Source of the DNA: Aphrocallistes beatrix
Taxonomy: Eukaryota > Porifera > Hexactinellida > Sceptrulophora > Aphrocallistidae
NCBI GenBank assembly: GCA_963281255.1
Contig: OY725500.1
Location: forward strand, 2,475,184-2,539,183
DNA: 64,000 bases
Direction of reading: 5' to 3'
A program made the position numbers and the translations under genes. Within the stretch, counting starts at the first letter, position 1. Each line of letters starts with the position of its first letter. The notes below the pieces were generated by a model that was given only the letters and a program-made list of their open reading frames with translations, was not told the origin of the DNA and did not search any database. Shown here in pieces: positions 8,748 through 61,536 of this stretch.

Positions 8748-9981
8748 CAGGGTGCGGCATAAGTTCTGTCAAATTTTTAAGTATTCGTAGTTCTTGATAG
8801 CTTTACAGTATAGCAATATTTAACTACCCATAAGATACTCTACTGTATACTTTTCAATGTCAATTAGTGCCTAGTTCTGTAGTTAGCTCTATACTGATAT
8901 ATTGCAATGACAGAGATACGCTCTACTATTATTAGCCTATTCATGGCTGGAAATTCGAATGGTGAAATTTTTAGAATTCTGAAAACCCAAAATGTTGGGA
9001 GGAGGCTTATCCATCGCACTATTCAGAGTTTCAAAGATACAGGGACTGTACAAGACAGATCCTCGGCGTTCCATCAGGAAAATGGCTCAAGATTTCCAAA
9101 TAAGTGATATATCACTAAGGAGAGTGATTCACGATGATCTGGGCCTTAAGGCTTAGAAGAAAAAAGGTGCACATGCTTACCACAGCTATGCAGCAAAAAT
9201 CGGTCGATAGAAGCAGAGCACTGTTATCGCGTGCCACACCTGAGGTTTTGAACAATATTTTATTCTCTGACGAAAAATTATTCATGATCGAGCAAGCTTC
9301 CAACTCCCAAAACGACAGAATCCTTTCACCCAGTGTTAAAGACATCCCCAAAAATCTTAGATTTGTTCCTCGATGCCAAAAGCCAGCTTCTGTGATGGTC
9401 TGGGCGGGAATTTCCGCTGATTCACGAACGGACCTCATTTTTGTCCCGGAAGGGGTGAAAATAAATGCAAAAACTTACCGAGAACTTATTCTAGATGCGG
9501 AATTCAAAAACGCAGGTTCTAGACTTTTTAATAATAACAATTGGACCTTCCAGCAAGATGGCGCACCGGCACACACCGCTAATATCACTCAGCAATGGTT
9601 TCGGGACCAAAAAATCGATTTTGTTTCTAAGCTGGAATGGCCGCCATCAAGCCCGGACCTTAACCCCATGGACTATTGTGTGTGGTCCATTCTAGAGGAG
9701 AAGGCCTGAGCTAAATCTCATACCAACATCAGGTTTCTGAAAGCTTCACTTCAACGTGAATGGCAAAAAATCCCCCAGGACCTCTTGCGGCGTTCCGTTC
9801 ATCAGTTTCCATCACGTCTTAAGGCTGTAATTCAAAAGAAAGGAGGGTATATTGAATAATTCTATTTGTATTCTTTTAAGTATTGTTATAGTAGTAAACG
9901 TGTGTAATTTTAAGGCTATTAGTTGAGTTTTTGTCAAAATATATTGAATTCCGTATTGGACAGAACTTTTGCCGCACCCTG
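8748..9981 (+). mobile_element. DD37D (maT-like) Tc1/mariner transposon
   Basis: Terminal inverted repeats CAGGGTGCGGCATAAGTTCT and complement, with TA on both sides (8746-8747, 9982-9983). It is 1,234 bp, a normal length for the superfamily, and contains the transposase remnant at 8907-9859. Confidence 0.85.
8907..9859 (+). pseudogene. DD37D transposase, frameshifted
   Basis: Codes for a cut-and-paste transposase of the IS630-Tc1-mariner superfamily. The N-terminal helix-turn-helix part (8907-9105) begins MTEIRSTIISLF. The catalytic part continues in another frame from about 9134. The first Asp is in NILFSDEKLF, the second in FQQDGAPAHT, the third in SPDLNPMDYCVW. The second-to-third spacing is 37 residues and the third acid is Asp, not Glu, hence DD37D. 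Lesions are the frame change around 9045-9134 and an in-frame TGA after LEEKA near 9708. The tail QKKGGYIE then closes normally. Not functional as read. Confidence 0.85.
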
Positions 9982-19367: not shown

Positions 19368-20721
19368 CAGTATGTCAAGAAATTGATGATCCCTTGAATT
19401 TAACTTTATTACTTTTAACTAACTTACAAACTCCTATAATTTTACTTTCCTATGTATCCTCCTTCTAATTGTAGACATCTCTTAATTCTATTTTGCATTC
19501 CAGCTATTAAAGCTTCCAGAGTATCAGGTGATATCTGAGACCAGGCCTCCTTGACGTTTTTAATCAGGGTTTCTTCATTGGTTGCAGGTTCCAGTTCTTG
19601 GAGCTTCCCCTTCACGATAGCCCAGAGATTTTCAATAGGCGACAAATCAGGACTATTGCCAGGCCATATACCTTTGATCCAGAATGAAGGAATGTTGCGT
19701 TGCAACCAATTTGGGCAAGGCGGGAGTGATGAGCTGGGGCCCCATCTTGCTGGAAAACGGTCACAGACATGTCAGGAAGCATTTTTCTTATCAGAATAGA
19801 GCCATTTTCTTTCTTTCTGTTGAAGTCAGAATGAAGAGACTTTTTCAAGATCTCTTCCACATAATATTTCCCAGTTACCATTTGTCCTTTGGGAATTACA
19901 TGAAGTTTCCCCAATGCTCGGTAGCTCATCATTCCCCAAACCTGGATTTTCAGAGGATGCTTCAAAGATTCGTTTGGCTTCACATCTTCCCTCTTTGAAG
20001 CCCATATTCGGTCTGTCTGCTTGTTTGGGAGAGAAAATAACTGAAATGGGGACTCATCTGAAAATATAACAGCTTTCCACTCCTCTGCAGTCCAGTTTTT
20101 CCTCTCTTTGCAAAATTTTACTCGATTTTCCTTCTGTTTGATGGTCAACCTGGGCACTGTCTGGGGTTTGTAGCTCTTAAGTTTTAGATTTCCGCGCAAA
20201 TACGTCCTAATTGTCTCATGGGAAACCTTTCGCCCATGTTTCGATAATCTATTAGCTAGTTCTCTGCATGATTGTCTTCTTTTTCCCTTGCTTTTCGAAA
20301 TTTTAATTTTTTCCACTCTGGTCAGCTTCTTTCTCCTGCCACGACCGTTGCGATTCGTCAAACTTTTCCCCTCCCTGTGTCGCCTCCACCATCTTTTTAT
20401 TGTGGCAATTCCAACACCTAACGAATCAGCCACCTCTGTTTGCGACATTCCAGCAGATAATTGTCCAATAGCATGATTTCGGGTAGCCAAAGAATGCTCT
20501 TTCACCATTTTATAACATCAAATCTCTAACTAAAAACAGAATTTTTTTGCAACGTTTCTCTAGTGATTCTTGTTGCGATTATAGTATAGGAAAATTTTAT
20601 ATTTCGTTTTATAGATTCAAGTTAATGGTTCGATAACGACAATTGAGTTAAGAATGTTATATATGAAAATAATTGCAAAAATAAAAATTTTTTAAGGGAT
20701 CATCAATTTCTTGACATACTG
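19368..20721 (-). mobile_element. DD37E Tc1/mariner transposon, copy 1
   Basis: Ends CAGTATGTCAAGAAATTGAT and complement, TA on both sides (19366-19367, 20722-20723), 1,354 bp. Carries the transposase gene at 19442-20508. Confidence 0.9.
19442..20508 (-). pseudogene. DD37E transposase with one frameshift
   Basis: Nearly full-length transposase. Residues 1-110 are a paired-like DNA-binding region with IKRWWRRHREGKSL and a basic GRGRRKK stretch. Asp151 is in VIFSDESPFQ and Asp255 in VFQQDGAPAH. After the lesion the other frame reads PGNSPDLSPIENLW with the catalytic Glu. Counting across the lesion, 37 residues separate the second Asp and the Glu. The lesion is a one-base loss near 19700. The C-terminus LEGGYIGK matches the other two DD37E copies. 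Apart from that single base it looks recently active. Confidence 0.9.
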
Positions 20722-25886: not shown

Positions 25887-27241
25887 CAGTATGTCCCGAA
25901 AGTCTTTTCCTATTTGATTTGAAATTATAAAATTAATAATACGTGTCATAGGGGTTTAATTATTTTCCAATATAACCTCCTTTCATTACTACACACTTCT
26001 TCATTCTGTCTGGCATTCCATCTATCAATCTTCTGAGTAAATCAGGACTGATGTCCGACCACAACGTTTTCAGATTTTTTTCCAGCATATCTAGATTTGT
26101 CGCAGGCGGTATCTCTGATAGGTTTTGTTTAAACACAGCCCACAAATTTTCAATCGGAGAAAGATCAGGAGAGTTGCCTGGCCATACTTCTTTCGCCCAG
26201 TAACCAGGAAGCTTCAATCGACACCATTCCTGGCTCGATTTTGAGGTGTGAGCAGGGGCTCCATCCTGCTGAAAGATGGCATTCGACATGTTTTCGCAAA
26301 GTTTTCTCTCCAGAATCGTCTCTTTTGATCGCCTACGAGCGAAGGCAGATTTACATGGGTCAGCTAGGATGTTATCCACATAATATTTGGCATTTACAGT
26401 GCATTTCTGAGGAAGAATGTTTAATTCTGACACAGCATTAGCTGACATAGCGCCCCATACCATCAAATGTGGGGGGAATTTTGATGTGAGAACCGGAGGT
26501 ATATTATGAGCATCAGAGTCCCAAACGCGATCTGTTTGTCGGTTTGAAGGTTCAAACAGATGAAAAGGAGCTTCGTCCGAGAATACGACGTTAGCCCAAA
26601 CTTAGCTGACCAATTGAGCCTTTCTTTACAAAATTTTAATCTGTGAACCCTCTGTTTTTCCGTTAATCTCGGATTGTGGGGTCGTTTGTAGCTTTTGAGG
26701 CCAAGCTTTTCCCTCAAATAGCGATGTATGGCGGTTTTGGAGGTCTTGTGGCCACGAGCGGTTAGTCTTCTCGCCAGTTTTCTTGTCGACTGGTGTCTCT
26801 TACCAACAGACTTTGAAATCACAATTTTAGCCACTCTCGTTAGTGAAGATGACCTCCCTGATCTGGGTTTATCAATCAGACTTTCACCACACTTATTGCG
26901 CCTCCACCAATTATTTACTGTTTTGATCGTTTTCCCAAGTCTTCTAGCAACGTCTTTCTGTGTAATCCCTGCTTCTAACATAGCTATCGCTTTGACACGC
27001 ACAAGATTTGAGGGAGGATTTATTAAATTTGACATCCAATATCCGAAAAAAAATGAAATTTGTAAATTGCAAAAAAAATTTGAAACGAATACAATGCCTT
27101 GGAAAATATAGCTATTATTTAATTTTTTAACACGTTGCCAAAAGTAAAAATAGTTGTAAGTTTAACTTTGTTGGACTAGATGAGCCAAGGATGCATAATA
27201 TAGTCGAAATTATAATAGGAAAAGACTTTCGGGACATACTG
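25887..27241 (-). mobile_element. DD37E Tc1/mariner transposon, copy 2
   Basis: Ends CAGTATGTCCCGAAAGTCTT and complement, TA on both sides (25885-25886, 27242-27243), 1,355 bp. Terminal sequence resembles but is not the same family as 19368-20721. Confidence 0.9.
25960..27035 (-). pseudogene. DD37E transposase, frameshifted near the first Asp
   Basis: The N-terminal frame (27035 to about 26600) carries the DNA-binding domain (VNNWWRRNKCGESLIDKPRS) and NPRLTEKQRVHRLKFCKER. The frame is lost around 26590-26610 in the region that should hold the first catalytic Asp. The C-terminal frame from 26466 gives MMVWGAMSANA, IFQQDGAPAHTSKSSQEW, WPGNSPDLSPIENLW and GGYIGK at the end. The second Asp to Glu spacing is 37. 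Two frames, hence inactive. Confidence 0.9.
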
Positions 27242-36331: not shown

Positions 36332-37681
36332 CAGGGTGTATCATAAGTGCTGTCGTATTATAAAATTTACATTTATGCTCGTTTATTCAATGTAGAAGAT
36401 TCTATTTTATTTACCAATGTAATCTCCAGATCTATTAATTACTTCACTAATGCGATTAGGCATATCATTTATTAAATTTTGAAGAATCGTAGGTTCAACC
36501 CGTGCCCACTCCTTTTTCAAATTATCTACGAGGGCATTTAGCGTGCAGACTTCAGGGAGTTTACTGAGATTTTCTCCAAGTATAGCCCACAAATTTTCAA
36601 TGGGGTTCAGGTCCGGAGAGTTACCTGGCCAGTCAGCCTTCGCCCAATACCTTGGTAAATTCTCTGAGCACCAAACCTGGGTTAGCTTGGCCGTGTGCGC
36701 TGGAGCACCATCCTGCATAAAAATGGCTTGAGACATGTTTTCAAGCATAGCTCGTTCCAGAATTGTACCAGAATCTGATGTTCGGTTGACTGCATTCATG
36801 CAAGTGAGTTTCAAGATGTTCTCACGATAATACTCTCCTTTTACACTCTGTTTTTGAGGAATAATATGGAGCTCTGACAGTGCCCTATGCGAGCGACATC
36901 ATGCCCCAAACCTGAATTTTCGCCGGAAACTTGACCCTTTTGAAAGGCTGAACATCGATCGAACTATGTGACCATACCCTATCGTTCTGCCGGTTTGGTG
37001 GTGCAAATAGTTGAAAGGGCGATTCATCTGACCATAGAACCTTCTGCCAATCTGTTACATTCCAGTTCTTGTGTTTTAGAGCAAAATTGAGTCGATTTTG
37101 CTTCATTTTCTCTGTAAGGCGGGGGATCTGTTGCCTCTTGTATGGGTAAACATTGATTTAATTTCTCAAATAGCGATGAACAGTTGAATGAGATGCTGTG
37201 TAACCTGAATTGACTAAATTACGCGCTATTGTCCTTGTAGACTTCCCTCTTTTCTCCAAAGTTTTAGAAATGATGATTTTAGGGATGCGAGAGAGGATTT
37301 TTGGGCGTCCGTTTCTGGGCAATGTTCCATGGACTTGCCTAGTATATCCCGACGAGACCGTCTCTGAACCGATCTAAGCGAAACCTCGAGTTTTTCCGAG
37401 ACTATTTTCATTGTCAAACCGGCCTTAAGCATCCCAATGGCTTTACTACGAACTTCAATACCATGGTCATTGACATCCATTTTCTGAAAATAATAATAAA
37501 ATACAAAAGTTGGTGAAAATCGACAAGAAGAGATAAAATAATTGAAATATGTGCTGAGAACTAGCCACAATACTTTAAAATAATAGAATAATAGCAAACA
37601 AATACGTTAAGTATATGGGCGCTGATTAAATTCAAACTGAAAATAGGATTGGATATACGACAGCACTTTTGATACACCCTG
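36332..37681 (-). mobile_element. DD37E Tc1/mariner transposon, copy 3
   Basis: Ends CAGGGTGTATCATAAGTGCT and complement, TA at both sides (36330-36331, 37682-37683), 1,350 bp. Confidence 0.9.
36407..37480 (-). pseudogene. DD37E transposase in three frames
   Basis: The N-terminal part starts MDVNDHGIEVRSKAIGMLKA. The middle part (36885-37106) has VLWSDESPFQLFAPPNRQND with the first Asp and IQVWGMMS. The C-terminal part (36407-36814) has IFMQDGAPAHTAKLTQVW, WPGNSPDLNPIENLW with the Glu 37 residues after the second Asp, and ends SGDYIGK. At least two frameshifts plus losses in the middle. Same subfamily as 19442 and 25960. Confidence 0.88.
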
Positions 37682-46656: not shown

Positions 46657-48010
46657 CAGTGCCGGTCAAAAAGAATTGCTCAAAATGAATTTACTCAAAA
46701 TTTTTAAGTCCCTGATTAGTTTTGACAGTAATTCTTTATCATAATCGAATAAATTGTCATTAGTATTTAGTAGAACATCCCCTTGCTTGAATTACAGCCT
46801 TACATCTTTTGCGGCATGCTATCTATCAGAGTATGGAGCTGGTTAATGTCGATACTGTCCCAAGTACTCAATATAGCATTCCACAACTCCGAGTGGTTGG
46901 ATGGGCTTTTCTCTTGAATTCTTAGGTAAATTCGATCCCAAAGGTTCTCAATCGGGTTTAGATCAGGTGACTGTGCCGGCCAATCCATTACCTCTATTTT
47001 TTGCTCATCAAACCACTGCTTAGTACCCTTTGACCTGTGGCATGGGGCGTTGTCCTGCTGAAATGTCCATCCAGAGTGAAGAGAATGCAAATCAACGCTT
47101 GGAATTAGAGCATTTTCCAAAATATCAATGTAGGAATCTGTCTTGAGGTTCCCAGATACTTTACACAAGAGTCCCACGCCACTCCAGCAAAAACATCCCC
47201 AAACCATGATGCCACCTCCACCAAATTTGCAGGTTTTCTGAATACACCTCTCCGAAAACTCCTCCCCTTTCATTCTCCTTACGTACACTCTCCCGTCATT
47301 GGTATAGAGAAGGAATCGAGATTCGTCACTGAACATAATTCTTGCCCATTCTTCAGTACTCCAGTCCTTGTGTGCCCTTGCGAAGGCAAGACGGTCTCTC
47401 TTATGCTTGGGAGTTAGGCGGGGCTTCCTTCGTGGTTTCCGTCCGAACAGTCCAGCCCCTCTTAACCTTCTCTGGACTGTTGAAGTGGAAAGTTTTAGCG
47501 AATATTCTGATAATACTTCGGCTCTGATCTGAGTAGCAGTCTTAAATCGATCCGTTTTGCATTTTCTGACTAACAAACTGTCTTGCCTTTTGGTTGTGAC
47601 TCGAGGCCTCCCCGGAATAGTGATGTCTCTTACCGAACCTGTAAGTCTATGTTTCTTTAGGATCTCAGCTACACTCTTTTGGCTGCACCCAACCATTGTA
47701 GCTACCTCCCTCTGAGTATGGCCGCTTTTTGATAACAATATTAGGTTTGCTCGATTTTCAATGGAAATTCGGGGTTTCGAAGGCATCGAAAATTGGAGAA
47801 ATACTGTAAAATTGTAAATAAAGAGAGAGAAGTGAAATGGCGAAGTTGTACAAAGATAATGAATGGAATATCTGTATTTGGGTGTTACTTATCAAAATAA
47901 CCAAAGAAGTATATGGTTTCGCAAGAAACAAACAATCTAGTGAGTTGAGACTATTCAACATTACTATACTGTATACATTGATTTTGAGCAATTCTTTTTG
48001 ACCGGCACTG
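46657..48010 (-). mobile_element. Tc1 (DD34E) transposon, nearly intact
   Basis: Ends CAGTGCCGGTCAAAAAGAAT and complement, TA on both sides (46655-46656, 48011-48012), 1,354 bp. Inserted in the P-like element. Confidence 0.92.
46760..47786 (-). pseudogene. Tc1 transposase, intact except for its last codons
   Basis: Cut-and-paste transposase, 328 codons open. A bipartite paired-like DNA-binding region (residues 1-115) has the GRPR hook in ITIPGRPRVTT and a basic stretch GRKPRRKPRL. Catalytic Asp154 (MFSDESRF), Asp245 (FQQDNAPCH) and Glu280 (SPDLNPIENLW) are all present, with 34 residues between the last two. The normal C-terminus is lost because the frame shifts after DSMPQKM; in the other frame the expected AVIQARG..STKY tail follows and stops at 46760. 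This looks like a two-base loss. It is the best-preserved transposase here, so activity in this genome may be recent. Confidence 0.92.
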
Positions 48011-57022: not shown

Positions 57023-57468
57023 TAAAGCGAGCTTCGCTTGTTTGCGGAGCGCGGCTGGCGGACACAAAGTGTTCACCGGAGGCGCCCTTTGGGTGCCTAC
57101 GTTCAGAATTGATAAATTTTCGATATCACTCGAATAATCACAAAATTTGTCAATTTTTCAATTTATGATGCTCAATGATGACGTCATAACAGTGTGATGA
57201 GTCATCAGGTATTGATGATAGTTGCATCATAGTATTTGAGATATATTAATAATTTAATATGCACATTCTCTTAAAATGTCGTCAGCCTTCTATCAACTAA
57301 AATAGCTGAGCTATAGCCGAAAAACTGCCTGGCACAAAAAGCTGATTTTTGGCATGTGGGAGTATTTTAGCTGTTGCATTGTCACCAATAATTAGTAATT
57401 TCTGGTTTTCGACCCTAACTCAGCCACTTTAGGTGATAGAAGGCTGAAATTTTGATAGAATGTGTATA

Positions 57469-57577
57469 TGCTACGGAACATGTTGACATTTGGAAGATGT
57501 TAACATCTACCATGGTAGATGTTAGCATCTACCGCGGTAGATGTTAACATTTTATTTTCAATTTGTTTAATGTATTT
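57469..57577. repeat. Left TIR of the Ginger-like element
   Basis: Built from overlapping palindromes: AGATGTTAACATCT, TACCATGGTA and TACCGCGGTA alternate. They may be transposase binding sites. Confidence 0.85.
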
Positions 57578-57856
57578 ATACGACTACCGAAATAGTTTCA
57601 ATTTCATTTTTTTACCTGGTGTTTAATTAAAACTTTCATCGTAACTACCTCACACTTTTATAGGTTCCGAAAACCGCACCCCCACGCAAATGCCATATTA
57701 ATTAATCCAAGTCCTCTTCAGTTAATTATAAAAGCTAATTAGGTACTAATCTATACTTTATTATTACAGTTGTGACATACAGTAGTATATATGTATGTAT
57801 GCTAAGACAGATAATGTAACGATGATCCAAGAATACTGAGGAATGTTATCAATTAA

Positions 57857-58811
57857 TTAAACGACTGAGATAAATGCGATAAAATTAATTTTAGAGATTT
57901 CGGGAAATTTAGATGGTTCTTCAGCTTGAATCTTAGGACTTCTGATTCCATCATATGAGACGAGCTTTTCATTTATAAAGGTTTGGAGTGTGAAGTGGTT
58001 TCCATAGATAAGTGAATGACCAATATGCTTGAAAGTCAATATTGTATCTTCATGCTCCAAGGTAATGTATGGATCAATATCATTCACTTCCACTCGCAGG
58101 TGTCCTGCCTCTATGAATAACAATGGCGAAAGTTGAGGAAACATACTTCCCATTTTTTGAAAGTTTTCATTTTTACATTGACATATCTTGCACTTTTTAG
58201 GGATTAGTTTAGAGTCAATAGTGTGTTGAAAACTTGTGAGAAAATTTTTGAAATAGTTGATGCGTTCCTTCATTGTAAACACCCCTGAACAGTGTGAACA
58301 CTTATATGTACGTTCATATTTCTGGACGATTAGTCCAGCATTAACGAAAATCTGAACAATTATATATTCGGATCCAAAGAAATCGAATGTGCCAGTCTCA
58401 AACTTGACTTGTAATTTTCTCGCTAGCCAGAAACGTAACGAATCGAATTTCAATTTACGAATATCGGATATAATTTTCCTCATGTCATCTTGGATCGTTA
58501 TTTCAAGCCAGGTCAGTATTCTTTGTAATTCGTGAAGTCGGAGACTAATTAGAGTTATGAAATTATCAACATTACATGTGTTACACAAGTTGATGCCTTT
58601 GTAACAACCTCCCCAGCTTGCGCAATACTGCTCAATCTCAGCGAATGGAATGCTTAATCTCCCAGTATCAATTATAAAAGGTTTACTATCAGAACTATCG
58701 GTATCTAATATGTTGTCATTAAATATTTCATCTTTTTTTACAAGTCCATTGATGAAATCTTCATTACCTGAAATATCAACTATTTCCTTGCTATATTTAC
58801 GTTGTTTTTTA
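57857..58811 (-). CDS. Ginger-like transposase, exon 3: USP-like cysteine protease
   Basis: No ATG opens this frame. A 43-nt GT-AG intron (58812-58854) links it in frame to the CXC exon (E-D-K-K-Q-R). Numbered on the open frame: GINLCNTCNVDNFI (Cys85) matches the Cys box of ubiquitin-specific proteases (NL.NTC). Two CxxC knuckles, YKCSHC (177/180) and KKCKICQC (213/216), match the USP zinc finger. YGNHFTLQTF (His278) and VSYDG (Asp293) fit the His box. Order Cys-zinc-His rules out Ulp1, and the Cys box is not OTU-like. Predicted role is cutting ubiquitin-like modifiers or self-processing; this is inference. Stop after IAFISVV at 57857. Confidence 0.65.
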
Positions 58812-58854
58812 CTGAATTCATTGTACAAGTATAACTCTCAATTTTATATTTCAC

Positions 58855-59475
58855 TCTTCGTGTTGCTCACTAGGAGATCCTGGTGGTGAGATTGCATTAT
58901 TACATTTACCTCTTATTTTGGAATGGCAGTTGCTGGAACATGTGATACCAGATCTTCTACATGAACAGTAATGTCTATTACATTTTCCCCTACACTGACA
59001 AGAAGTTCTTTTACCTAAGGTAACTGATCTGGCAATGGTGTGCATTGTGCTTTCAGTTTTAGGAATATCACTAACTTGAAGAAATGTAGAACCATTCAAA
59101 GTTCAAATTCGCCTCTGGTATATTTTCGATTCAGGACACCTTCTTTTGTTCCAATTGTGTAATAGATTCCACTTATATCAGTGATAACACCTAATAAGTG
59201 TTTATCTCCAAGTTTTCCCTTAGCAACCTTGGGAATTGAGACCCTGACATTATCGCCAATGGTAACTGCTGGTAAATTCTTTGCAGTATCAGAAAGCATC
59301 TTTTCTGCTTGCCTCTTTTGGCCCCTTTGAGCAAGTGTGCATATTTTGCTTTGGTTCAGTATTTTAGCGCAATATGGACTTTCGCAAAAATGGTGTAATG
59401 TTACCAAATCTCGGCTAAAACAATACTTATGCCCAACGTTTGAACGTGAAAACCAAGTCACGAATTCGCTTCCTA
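58855..59475 (-). CDS. Ginger-like transposase, exon 2: linker and CXC zinc region
   Basis: Continues from exon 1 through VGSEFVTWFSRSNVGHKYCF, a Cys-containing block LHHFCESPYCAKIL, and a small barrel-like region (VTIGDNVRVSIPKV..GVITDIS..GVLNRKYTRGEFEL). There the frame breaks: CTTTGAATGG at about 59097 appears to lack one base. The next frame gives STFLQVSDIPK and a Cys-rich block with pattern CxCx3Cx4CxCx6Cx3C (SCQCRGKCNRHYCSCRRSG). This CXC motif is common in KRBA2-like transposon proteins and probably binds zinc and DNA. The exon ends at a GTGAAA donor (58854). One apparent single-base lesion, or a sequence error, separates it from an intact gene. Confidence 0.65.
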
Positions 59476-59507
59476 CTGAAAAATTGCATATATTGAACAA
59501 GACATAC

Positions 59508-60732
59508 CTTCAGATATTTGATCCATTGTAGTTCCCAATGTTGTAAGATCAAAATTCATCGTTACATCATAATGGTCCGAGCCATTATCACTATCGATAT
59601 TTTCAGAAAGAGATACTGATTCCATTTGGGAGGTATTTGGGATAAAAGGTGAACCAACATCCTCTACGCTGTATGTAATGTCTTCGTTATCGCTTAATAG
59701 TTCAGTTTCAAAACTTGAGAACTTTGAACTAAGATCTTCAACTGTATTGATTGAATGGTGAAGTGTAGAAGGAATATCAAAATCTCGAAGTCCTCGGGGT
59801 GGATCTCTACCATATAGAACCTTATATGGGCCGGTACTCAGAATCGTATGTAGTGTTGTGTTTTTCATATATGCTACTCTGTTCAATTCCTTAGCCCAAT
59901 GAGAATGGCTTTCTTTTTCTAACAAACTTTGAAGAATATTCTCAACACGACCATTTGCATTCTCAACAGAGCCTTGGGATTGTGGCTTTCTAGGTTTTCC
60001 ATGTATTATTTTGGTTGATGGCCACAATGCATTTAGAGTTTCCAATAGAAGCCTATTATCAAACTCCTTGCCATTGTCACTCTGGAGTATGTTCGGTGCA
60101 CCAAGTGAATAGAAGATTGTGACAAGATTGCTGGCAACTTCTTTCGCACATTTTTGTTTTAATGGTTTTAATACTGCCCACTTAGTGAAGTGATCCTGGT
60201 AATTTAAAATCCACTTAAATCCGATATCTGGCACAGTACGCATATCGATAAGATCAACCTGTCCCCGTGAGCCAAAGCTTGTAGACAGAATTGGATTTGT
60301 TACTAAAGATTTCTGACTCTTTTTGGAAATTCTTGCCTGATGGCTCGGGCTGTGCTCTAAGAATAGCCTCACTAACCCAACACTGATATAGATACCTTGT
60401 TTCCTTAAATTATGGTGAATTGGTTTCCATCCTGCAAATCCTGTCTGTTCCCACGACCAATATAATTTATCGAACAGGTCTTCGAACGAAACAACTTGGA
60501 AGGACTTATCTTTATTGTAAGGATCTATATAGCGCAATTCCTTTACTTCCAAGGCCTTAAGAACGCGAAAATGCTGAAGGGATCGATCATACGTCCCGCT
60601 TGGATCGCAGAGTTGCTCGATTATCCCTTCTATCTCTTTATTATTCCAGATACGACACTTTGGCTCCTGTTTTTTAGCCAGTACTTCGTCTTCAAACTTT
60701 CGACAGTGGTAATTTAAACGAATATCAGACAT
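59508..60732 (-). CDS. Ginger-like transposase, exon 1: integrase core
   Basis: Catalyses cut-and-paste transposition by an RNase H-fold DDE domain. Starts MSDIRLNYHCRKFEDEV. The catalytic residues are Asp160 (GQVDLIDM), Asp219 (LQSDNGKEF) and Glu257 (GSVENANG), with 37 residues between the last two. TGPYKVLYGRDPP at 300-312 is the GPY/F-like motif of Gypsy-type integrases. GYK/GWKPIHHNLRKQG-type sequence precedes the core. The acidic C-terminal tail is followed by ATATCTGAAG and a GTATGT donor at 59507; splicing 32 nt to 59475 keeps the frame (E-V-G-S-E-F). Resembles the integrase of KRBA2-like proteins. All catalytic residues are present. Confidence 0.82.
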
Positions 60733-61040
60733 ATGAACAAAAGTACGTGTAGGAAAATAAGATTTTTTATATGTACTTATAATTTATTTGGCTTTTATAA
60801 CAAACAGGAAAGATAGATCATCCATCTGCCCCATCTGTACCAGGACGAAAGCAGTAAAGAAAATAAGATCTATCATTATTTTTATAATTTTTTTAAATTT
60901 GATTCTCGATAGTTCGATTATTGCACCTGTTCCTCTCATCTGTATCAGGTAGTAAACATATTTAGAATGTAAACAGTTACAAAATCGACATATCAAAGAT
61001 GTTTATCATGTGAAAGTGAAAGCATTAGGGAAGCCGTCTA

Positions 61041-61149
61041 AAATACATTAAACAAATTGAAAATAAAATGTTAACATCTACCGCGGTAGATGTTAACATC
61101 TACCATGGTAGATGTTAACATCTTCCAAATGTCAACATGTTCCGTAGCA
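61041..61149. repeat. Right TIR of the Ginger-like element
   Basis: Reverse complement of 57469-57577 with one mismatch (the left copy has GTTAGCATC where the right has GTTAACATC). Confidence 0.85.
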
Positions 61150-61536
61150 TATATATTAATATACACATTCTATCAAAATTTCAGCCTTCTATCACCTAAA
61201 GTGGCTGAGTTATGGTCGAAAACCTGAAATTACTAATTATTACCTCACATATGATGCAACTATTGTCATGAAATGATGACTCATCACTCTGTTATGACAT
61301 TACGCATTAAAAAATTTAAAATGTTGACAAATTTGGTGATATTTCGAGCTATATCGATTTTGACAGTAAGTCAGATATATTTAGAGATGTTATCTACCTT
61401 ATACTTTATCAATGTGAGTCTAGGCCCCCGCAAGGTGTCTCTGGGGGCCACAAAGTCTCTGCCAGCTGTGCAGCGTAAGCAAGCGAAGCGTGCTTGTATA
61501 TATAAAAACACATTAATCGAGTTTTAATTGTAAGGA

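Follow-up and report, generated by a model that had tools for sequence, protein, structure and literature searches.

A putative USP-like deubiquitinase domain joined to a Ginger2/TDD-type transposase in the glass sponge Aphrocallistes beatrix

Transposons that bear OTU, Ulp1 or VTD protease domains have already been published (PMC2836005 and PMC9741609, cited here from excerpts, as below). For the OTU and Ulp1 domains of Ginger1 a part in transposition has been suggested, for example via DNA repair (Bao et al. 2010, PMC2836005), and Ginger2 is marked in the same source by an RTATAY target, a 4-bp target-site duplication (TSD) and the absence of the GPY/F module. Helentrons carry VTD, some of them with OTU, and these Helitron/Helentron elements are the precedent for a transposon whose own deubiquitinase domain has real activity (Nat Commun 2022, PMC9741609). 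A Trichomonas protein combines a domain of the ubiquitin-specific protease (USP) class, Peptidase C19, with a transposase_11 domain, which is another transposase type and not Ginger (PMC2836005). In the portions of the open-licence literature covered, that protein was the sole transposase-joined C19 domain met, and no paper was met that describes a USP-like domain for either Ginger1 or Ginger2. The locus described here lies in a 64,000-nucleotide stretch of the sponge Aphrocallistes beatrix, referred to as the window (contig OY725500.1, here C14:2475184-2539183; the genome has 100.5 Mb in 28 contigs). Collagen was matched by 128 of 150 candidates scored in this genome, which agrees with an animal source, although the collagen search also gave hits in 3 of 14 prokaryote controls. 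It holds a transposon for which we propose, with a probability of about two in three, that a USP-like putative deubiquitinase is joined to a Ginger2/TDD-type transposase as one protein, and that the same protease module is also present on a second transposon lineage.

An earlier sequence-only reading of the window had placed the transposon at 57469..61149 on the minus strand, and this extent of 3681 bp was found to be exact. A 25-base end is perfect at 57469-57493 (plus strand) and at 61125-61149 (minus strand), with a chance expectation of 0, and the inverted arms of 113 nt including the TSD are 99% complementary, corresponding to terminal inverted repeats (TIRs) of ~109 bp without it. Genome-wide, the end sequence had 23 matches at no more than 2 mismatches; both ends were examined in ten copies, and one end in an eleventh. 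Integrase and protease matches lie between the ends in all ten of the former, and the order integrase-CXC-protease is kept in the genome copies, so that the proposed Gypsy-integrase-related transposon with a protease-like domain after a CXC block is borne out by copies elsewhere in the same genome; the USP likeness is supported moderately, by the profile comparison below. Perfect 4-bp TSDs, read by eye, flank nine of the ten copies (eight in RTATAY, one in AGATAC), while the TSD of the tenth, at C1:6333955, does not match. In the main DNA matches, identity to the window copy is 93.6-99.3%, and it is lower in some of the shorter ones. On C12 there is a sister subfamily whose ends are TGTTA, whose arm measures 119 bp and whose TSD is TGTA (by eye).

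These copies bear directly on the explanation that the integrase and protease frames come from distinct elements that nested insertion has placed next to each other. That the frames are separate in the window, and that the element sits inside another inverted-repeat family, would be consistent with such an origin. The same TIR-bounded arrangement is nevertheless present in 10 of 10 copies, continuous frames of 813 and 258 amino acids (aa) run across the domain borders in the relatives L011 and L054, and the protease is also joined to a different integrase type. The explanation was rejected on the TIR-bounded copies and the continuous frames, and we regard it as extremely improbable.

In the window copy the integrase, the zinc-finger/IPK stretch, the CXC block and the protease stand in separate frames, which had been thought to join through two short GT-AG introns with only one lesion. 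The two-intron model was rejected because other copies read through both places in a ten-copy alignment, in which some copies are without parts of the 58.8-59.5 kb region. At 59476-59507 one frame is kept in 5 of the 6 other full-covering copies (the sister aside; the C17 copy has its own indel), and at 58812-58854 the read-through sequence is common to 7 of 8 other copies (both by eye). The frames are instead parted by frameshifts: four small indels at ~58.8-59.5 kb split the window frame, and these are shared with the 99.3%-identical sister copy on C12 (C12:3073542-3079456) and occur in no other copy covering those places. No longer duplication includes this pair, so the shared indels probably reflect either the mobilisation in trans of a copy that was already broken or the spread of the lesions by conversion. 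We read the window element as a defective Ginger2/TDD-type cut-and-paste DNA transposon. In terms of the polyprotein that had been predicted, L011 provides a single frame without stops, 813 aa long, that extends from the integrase core as far as the protease end, with the integrase N-terminus in another frame, and the sister locus L054 provides a continuous 258-aa frame from the IPK-type domain through the CXC block to the protease Cys box; the joining of the domains is thus upheld, while the polyprotein as such stays a prediction.

The integrase frame gave profile matches to IS481 (E 5.7e-16, below the curated cut-off) and rve (E 2.9e-5, below the Pfam cut-off), and a match to a foamy virus integrase at 8.1e-8, in agreement with the Gypsy-type DDE integrase that had been read on this strand. 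The CXC zinc block was likewise recovered, with a profile match below cut-off. The GPY motif did not hold: the string TGPYKVLYGR near 59840 is the usual motif that follows the DDE core. No GPY/F module was seen in the window element, and its place is taken by an IPK-type domain, GDNVRVxIPK...RGEFE (by eye). The TATA-type target, the 4-bp TSD and the lack of GPY/F point to a Ginger2-type element rather than the Ginger1-like one first suggested, a diagnosis made by anatomy rather than from a tree including named Ginger references. The features in common with Ginger2/TDD are a Gypsy-integrase-related DDE transposase without GPY/F, TIRs of ~110 bp (50-180 bp in Ginger2) and the 4-bp TSD in RTATAY (PMC2836005). 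Compared with that group, the H2C2 finger is degenerate, and the zinc finger, the CXC block and the USP-like protease of the window element go unmentioned in the Ginger2 section and Table 2 of the same paper. With Ginger1 the element shares a C-terminal cysteine protease of the ubiquitin/SUMO class on the transposase and a 4-bp TSD; it has neither GPY/F, nor a CCGG/CCGT TSD (TATA here), nor OTU or Ulp1 (PMC2836005). The earlier remark that a USP-like protease departs from the standard description of Ginger1 is correct in that the described Ginger1 proteins have OTU or Ulp1 (PMC2836005).

The window element also fits with transposases of the SCAND3 type. Three relatives in the same genome (L059, L061 and L065) have 35-43% identity to the window-type integrase and an IPK-type domain. 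They are apparently repeats, with frames of 595 aa in L059 and 603 aa in L065 and two frames in L061. Znf_SCAND3 (PF23663) scores above cut-off in L059 and L061, Integrase_H2C2 (PF17921), an H2C2-like finger, scores below cut-off in L065 and L059, and a C-terminal CXC-like block is present in L061 and L065 (IPK and CXC by eye). In mammals SCAND3 and KRBA2 belong to the host gene set, and we know of no protease in their proteins. L059, L061 and L065 are possibly transposon relatives of the source of these genes, the likeness to SCAND3/KRBA2-type integrases residing in Znf_SCAND3 and in the CXC-like end (PF23663; PMC3257199, in excerpt).

The third frame contains the NLCNTC box, the two CxxC pairs and the NHF box that had been read in it. 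It belongs to a family with 123 matches genome-wide (fragments of one copy being counted more than once), at identities down to 25%. In nine members compared, the Cys, the His-Phe and the Asn/Asp are kept in all, down to ~26% identity, and both CxxC pairs are kept in eight, L081 keeping one. The motifs occur as Cys box, CxxC, CxxC, IPxLxxIExGHL (LPxLxIxLxRF in USPs), HF and Asn/Asp, which is the USP order. The Asn/Asp follows the His by 15 residues in the nine members, with a Trp at 11 in six of them, and the same is seen in the host USPs L070 and L071. The VTD domain differs in having an Asp-x-His motif and no aromatic gatekeeper (PMC9741609). A codon comparison of nine members (L011 taking the place of the window protein, and an unaligned N-terminal piece of L030, left by trimming, staying outside the pair counts) gave pS, the proportion of synonymous differences, of 0.72-0.90 against a nonsynonymous proportion, pN, of 0.22-0.49 in 35 of 36 pairs, with synonymous differences at or near saturation; the 36th pair consists of near-copies, L080 being a near-copy of L025. 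The protease-like domain therefore looks to be under selection.

To relate the family to known proteases, its profile (nine members including the window protein, 8 used after filtering) was compared by hhalign with a profile built from ten USPs of the host, which Pfam UCH had identified. The alignment was colinear, with a score of 41.2, P of 5.5e-5 and a probability of 66%. Within it the CxxC regions, the His box and the Asp region correspond, as does IPxLxxIExGHL to LPxLxIxLxRF; for the Cys boxes there was solely a second, short and insignificant hit. Controls scored 20.3 (reversed USP profile) and 17.0 (integrase frames), 100 column-shuffled family profiles scored no more than 21.0, and 99 of 100 column-shuffled USP profiles no more than 23.6. 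Our data thus link the third domain moderately to the host USPs. With Pfam UCH, UCH_1, OTU and C48 unmatched, the assignment to USP family C19 comes entirely from the profile comparison and the motif order. The domain is most likely a divergent USP-class isopeptidase and putative deubiquitinase.

Several results weigh against the proposal of a USP-like domain on a Ginger2-type transposase. Pfam UCH, UCH_1, OTU, C48 and C98 gave no match in 7 members at E up to 10 (the HMMER filters drop most matches above ~0.1), and searches of the PDB by phmmer or with a profile of the protease domain gave no protease match. With smaller USP sets the hhalign probability fell to 33-36%, most single sequences stayed near the control level (18.4-31.4 for family members, 12.9-29.5 for USPs), and one of the 100 shuffled USP profiles reached 133.7, a 7-column edge artefact. 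The Asn that stands five residues ahead of the Cys in USPs, where it has an oxyanion role, is present in the window protein and absent from diverged members. A single-sequence AlphaFold model was uninformative (pLDDT 31). On the side of the transposase, Integrase_H2C2 is not listed for the window frame, which is without the canonical H2C2 residues, the Cys pair being replaced (by eye); the termini are TGCTA in the window family rather than the TGTNR of Ginger2, the sister subfamily having TGTTA; and apparently none of the ten copies reads open from end to end. In the wider family, no integrase frame was seen in the 1.5 kb upstream of the protease match of L026, and the TIR pair C13:1883857-1887740 has its protease match on one strand and its rve match on the other. 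Apart from these, the 326-aa frame had no protease match in NCBIfam, and no relative was found with the protease family in IMG/VR and GTDB contigs, whose scope does not include eukaryote genomes.

Two other views of the third domain have to be considered with these data. The domain may be a papain-like isopeptidase of another class, whether one directed at SUMO, as C98/USPL1 and Ulp1 are, or one that stands by itself. The lack of a sequence-level match to UCH/USP models favours this, as does the C-x-[VI]-D-[NS] box, which is unlike the C-[YF]-x-N-S-like box found in most of the host's USPs and presumably resembles that of USPL1. In Ulp1 the His precedes the Cys, which counts against an Ulp1 identity, and PF15499 (C98) was unmatched in 7 family members, with none found in the host genome search. 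The use of Ulp1 or OTU by the described Ginger1 proteins (PMC2836005) also fits another class, but the alignment of the profile to host USPs takes in their zinc-finger, LP, His and Asn/Asp boxes, and single sequences of two host OTUs and one host Ulp1 scored 11.5-15.6, although single USPs are low too. We consider an isopeptidase of another class unlikely. Less probable still is a structural zinc domain without catalysis, whose resemblance to the USP boxes would be coincidental. On its side are the weak Zn-ribbon hints, all that Pfam returns, and the uninformative single-sequence model; the constancy of Cys, His and Asn/Asp in the nine members, with pN far below pS, and the colinear profile match with its controls argue against it. 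A divergent USP-class enzyme remains the preferred reading.

The protease module is also carried in this genome by a second TIR-transposon lineage, with a Ginger1-like GPY/F integrase where the integrase was seen, which was in a minority of the elements. In L030, L031, L033 and L038 the same protease lies downstream of an integrase with GPY/F (by eye; GQY in L025), and at C3:5436684-5438927 (L033) both rve and protease matches are reported in a single 911-aa open frame. Patterns were built from the ends of this lineage, and 58 protease matches, chosen by eye, were used for overlap. The first pattern gave 14 pairs, with the protease inside 11 of the 11 that exceed 3.8 kb and absent from three of 116-568 bp, and the second gave three pairs, all above 3.8 kb and all with the protease inside, so that 14 of 14 long TIR pairs contain it. 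Unpaired ends numbered 23 and 11 further. Of ten elements whose flanks were tested, eight had a perfect 4-bp TSD, GNNC in seven and ATAC in one. The lineage resembles Ginger1 in GPY/F, where seen, and in the TGTTG ends of one subfamily, while the Ginger1 targets are CCGG/CCGT and not TATA (window element) or mostly GNNC (second lineage) (PMC2836005). Among diverged elements outside the window family, at least six combine a window-type integrase with the protease, and in at least five the protease accompanies rve matches, as a lower bound from a list that took in 102 of 123 protease, 93 of 101 integrase and 12 of 150 rve matches (rve chosen by eye). Because the protease is found with both window-type and GPY/F integrases, it is a module common to two transposase types. 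On this basis we put forward, tentatively and at slightly short of even odds, that the domain is a distinct USP-like isopeptidase family, found on mobile elements wherever copies were examined, that has passed between RTATAY/SCAND3-like and GPY/F Ginger-type lineages and occupies the slot held by OTU or Ulp1 in Ginger1.

The features of the window element are collected in Table 1. Differences between copies in the element ends fall in the 22-bp palindromic units of the TIRs, which are possible, putative binding sites for the transposase or the CXC block.

Table 1. Positions of the transposon and its parts in the window
Feature	Position	Strand	Remarks
Whole transposon	57469..61149	-	3681 bp, ends TGCTACGGAACATG...CATGTTCCGTAGCA; same ends in 10 copies
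TSD TATA, one side	57465..57468	.	read from sequence
TSD TATA, other side	61150..61153	.	read from sequence
TIR	57469..57577	.	arm 57465-57577 against 61041-61153, 99% complementary
TIR, second arm	61041..61149	.	99% complementary to first arm (TSD included)
Tandem 22-bp palindromic units within TIR	57494..57553	.	repeat families D1, I8, I9, I12
Matching 22-bp palindromic units, other TIR	61065..61124	.	repeat analysis
Integrase/transposase frame, 436 aa	59473..60783	-	DDE core ~60031-60261; first likely ATG 60730-60732
Zinc-finger-like stretch, SCAND3-like zinc finger position	59350..59510	-	zf-RING_16 E 0.0037, below cut-off, in L011; window frame broken here
GDNVRVxIPKxxxGKxGD...GVLxRxYxRGEFE domain, in GPY/F place	59096..59266	-	similar stretch in L022, L054, L059, L061, L065 (by eye)
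CXC (Tesmin/TSO1-like) cysteine block	58896..59006	-	PF03638 (TCR) E 0.01, below cut-off; similar in sister subfamily, L061, L065 (by eye)
USP-like cysteine protease frame, 326 aa	57857..58837	-	Cys88 (58574-58576), CxxC 180/183 and 216/219, His281 (57995-57997), Asp296 (57950-57952)

The transposon is nested in another inverted-repeat family (57120-57231 and 61250-61500). The larger inverted repeats 57120-57231 / 61250-61357 were rejected as a part of the element, as homology between copies ends at the ends of the element and related outer repeats stand beside several other copies. Repeats related to this outer family also adjoin the C12 sister subfamily, so that TATA-rich repeat centres may be favoured targets. 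Three stretches of 66, 116 and 568 bp (C4:5443477-5443542, C1:8456956-8457071 and C13:735402-735969) are bounded by facing element ends, and they are candidate miniature inverted-repeat transposable elements of the two carrier families. Fifteen UCH/USP matches form a cluster at C17:3630818-3668145, in which L077 is without the Cys of the Cys box. Of 150 candidates scored for OTU genome-wide, 149 matched; several of these fall within open frames ~1040-1100 aa long, in more than one location, and these frames are probably another protease-bearing repeat family. Elsewhere in the window, frames at 9128-9709, 19612-20517, 25960-27161, 36407-36898 and 46800-47888 resemble transposases that we take, from their motifs, to be Tc1/mariner-like.

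DDE integrases cut and join DNA, CXC blocks bind DNA, and USPs remove ubiquitin. Judging from the relatives, the intact protein would consist of the DDE integrase, a SCAND3-like zinc finger, the IPK-type C-terminal domain, the CXC zinc block and the USP-like cysteine protease. The integrase would cut TIR-flanked DNA and join it into RTATAY with a 4-bp duplication, a reaction expected from the family and matched by the anatomy of the copies. Substrates of the protease may then be the transposase, in cis, or proteins of the donor- or target-site chromatin, from which it would strip ubiquitin or, less likely, SUMO; the outcome would be a longer-lived transposase-DNA complex or easier repair.

If the proposal of a protease family shared between lineages is true, integrase-type cut-and-paste transposition in animals would repeatedly need a ubiquitin- or SUMO-stripping activity joined to the transposase, and the enzyme in that slot would be interchangeable. 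The separate recruitment of ubiquitin/SUMO proteases, namely OTU or Ulp1 in Ginger1, VTD in Helentrons and the USP-like domain here, suggests that a deubiquitinating activity bound to the transposase has a working role in transposition and is no ornament. The many open-frame relatives in this sponge genome, such as the one with the 911-aa frame, make that role testable.

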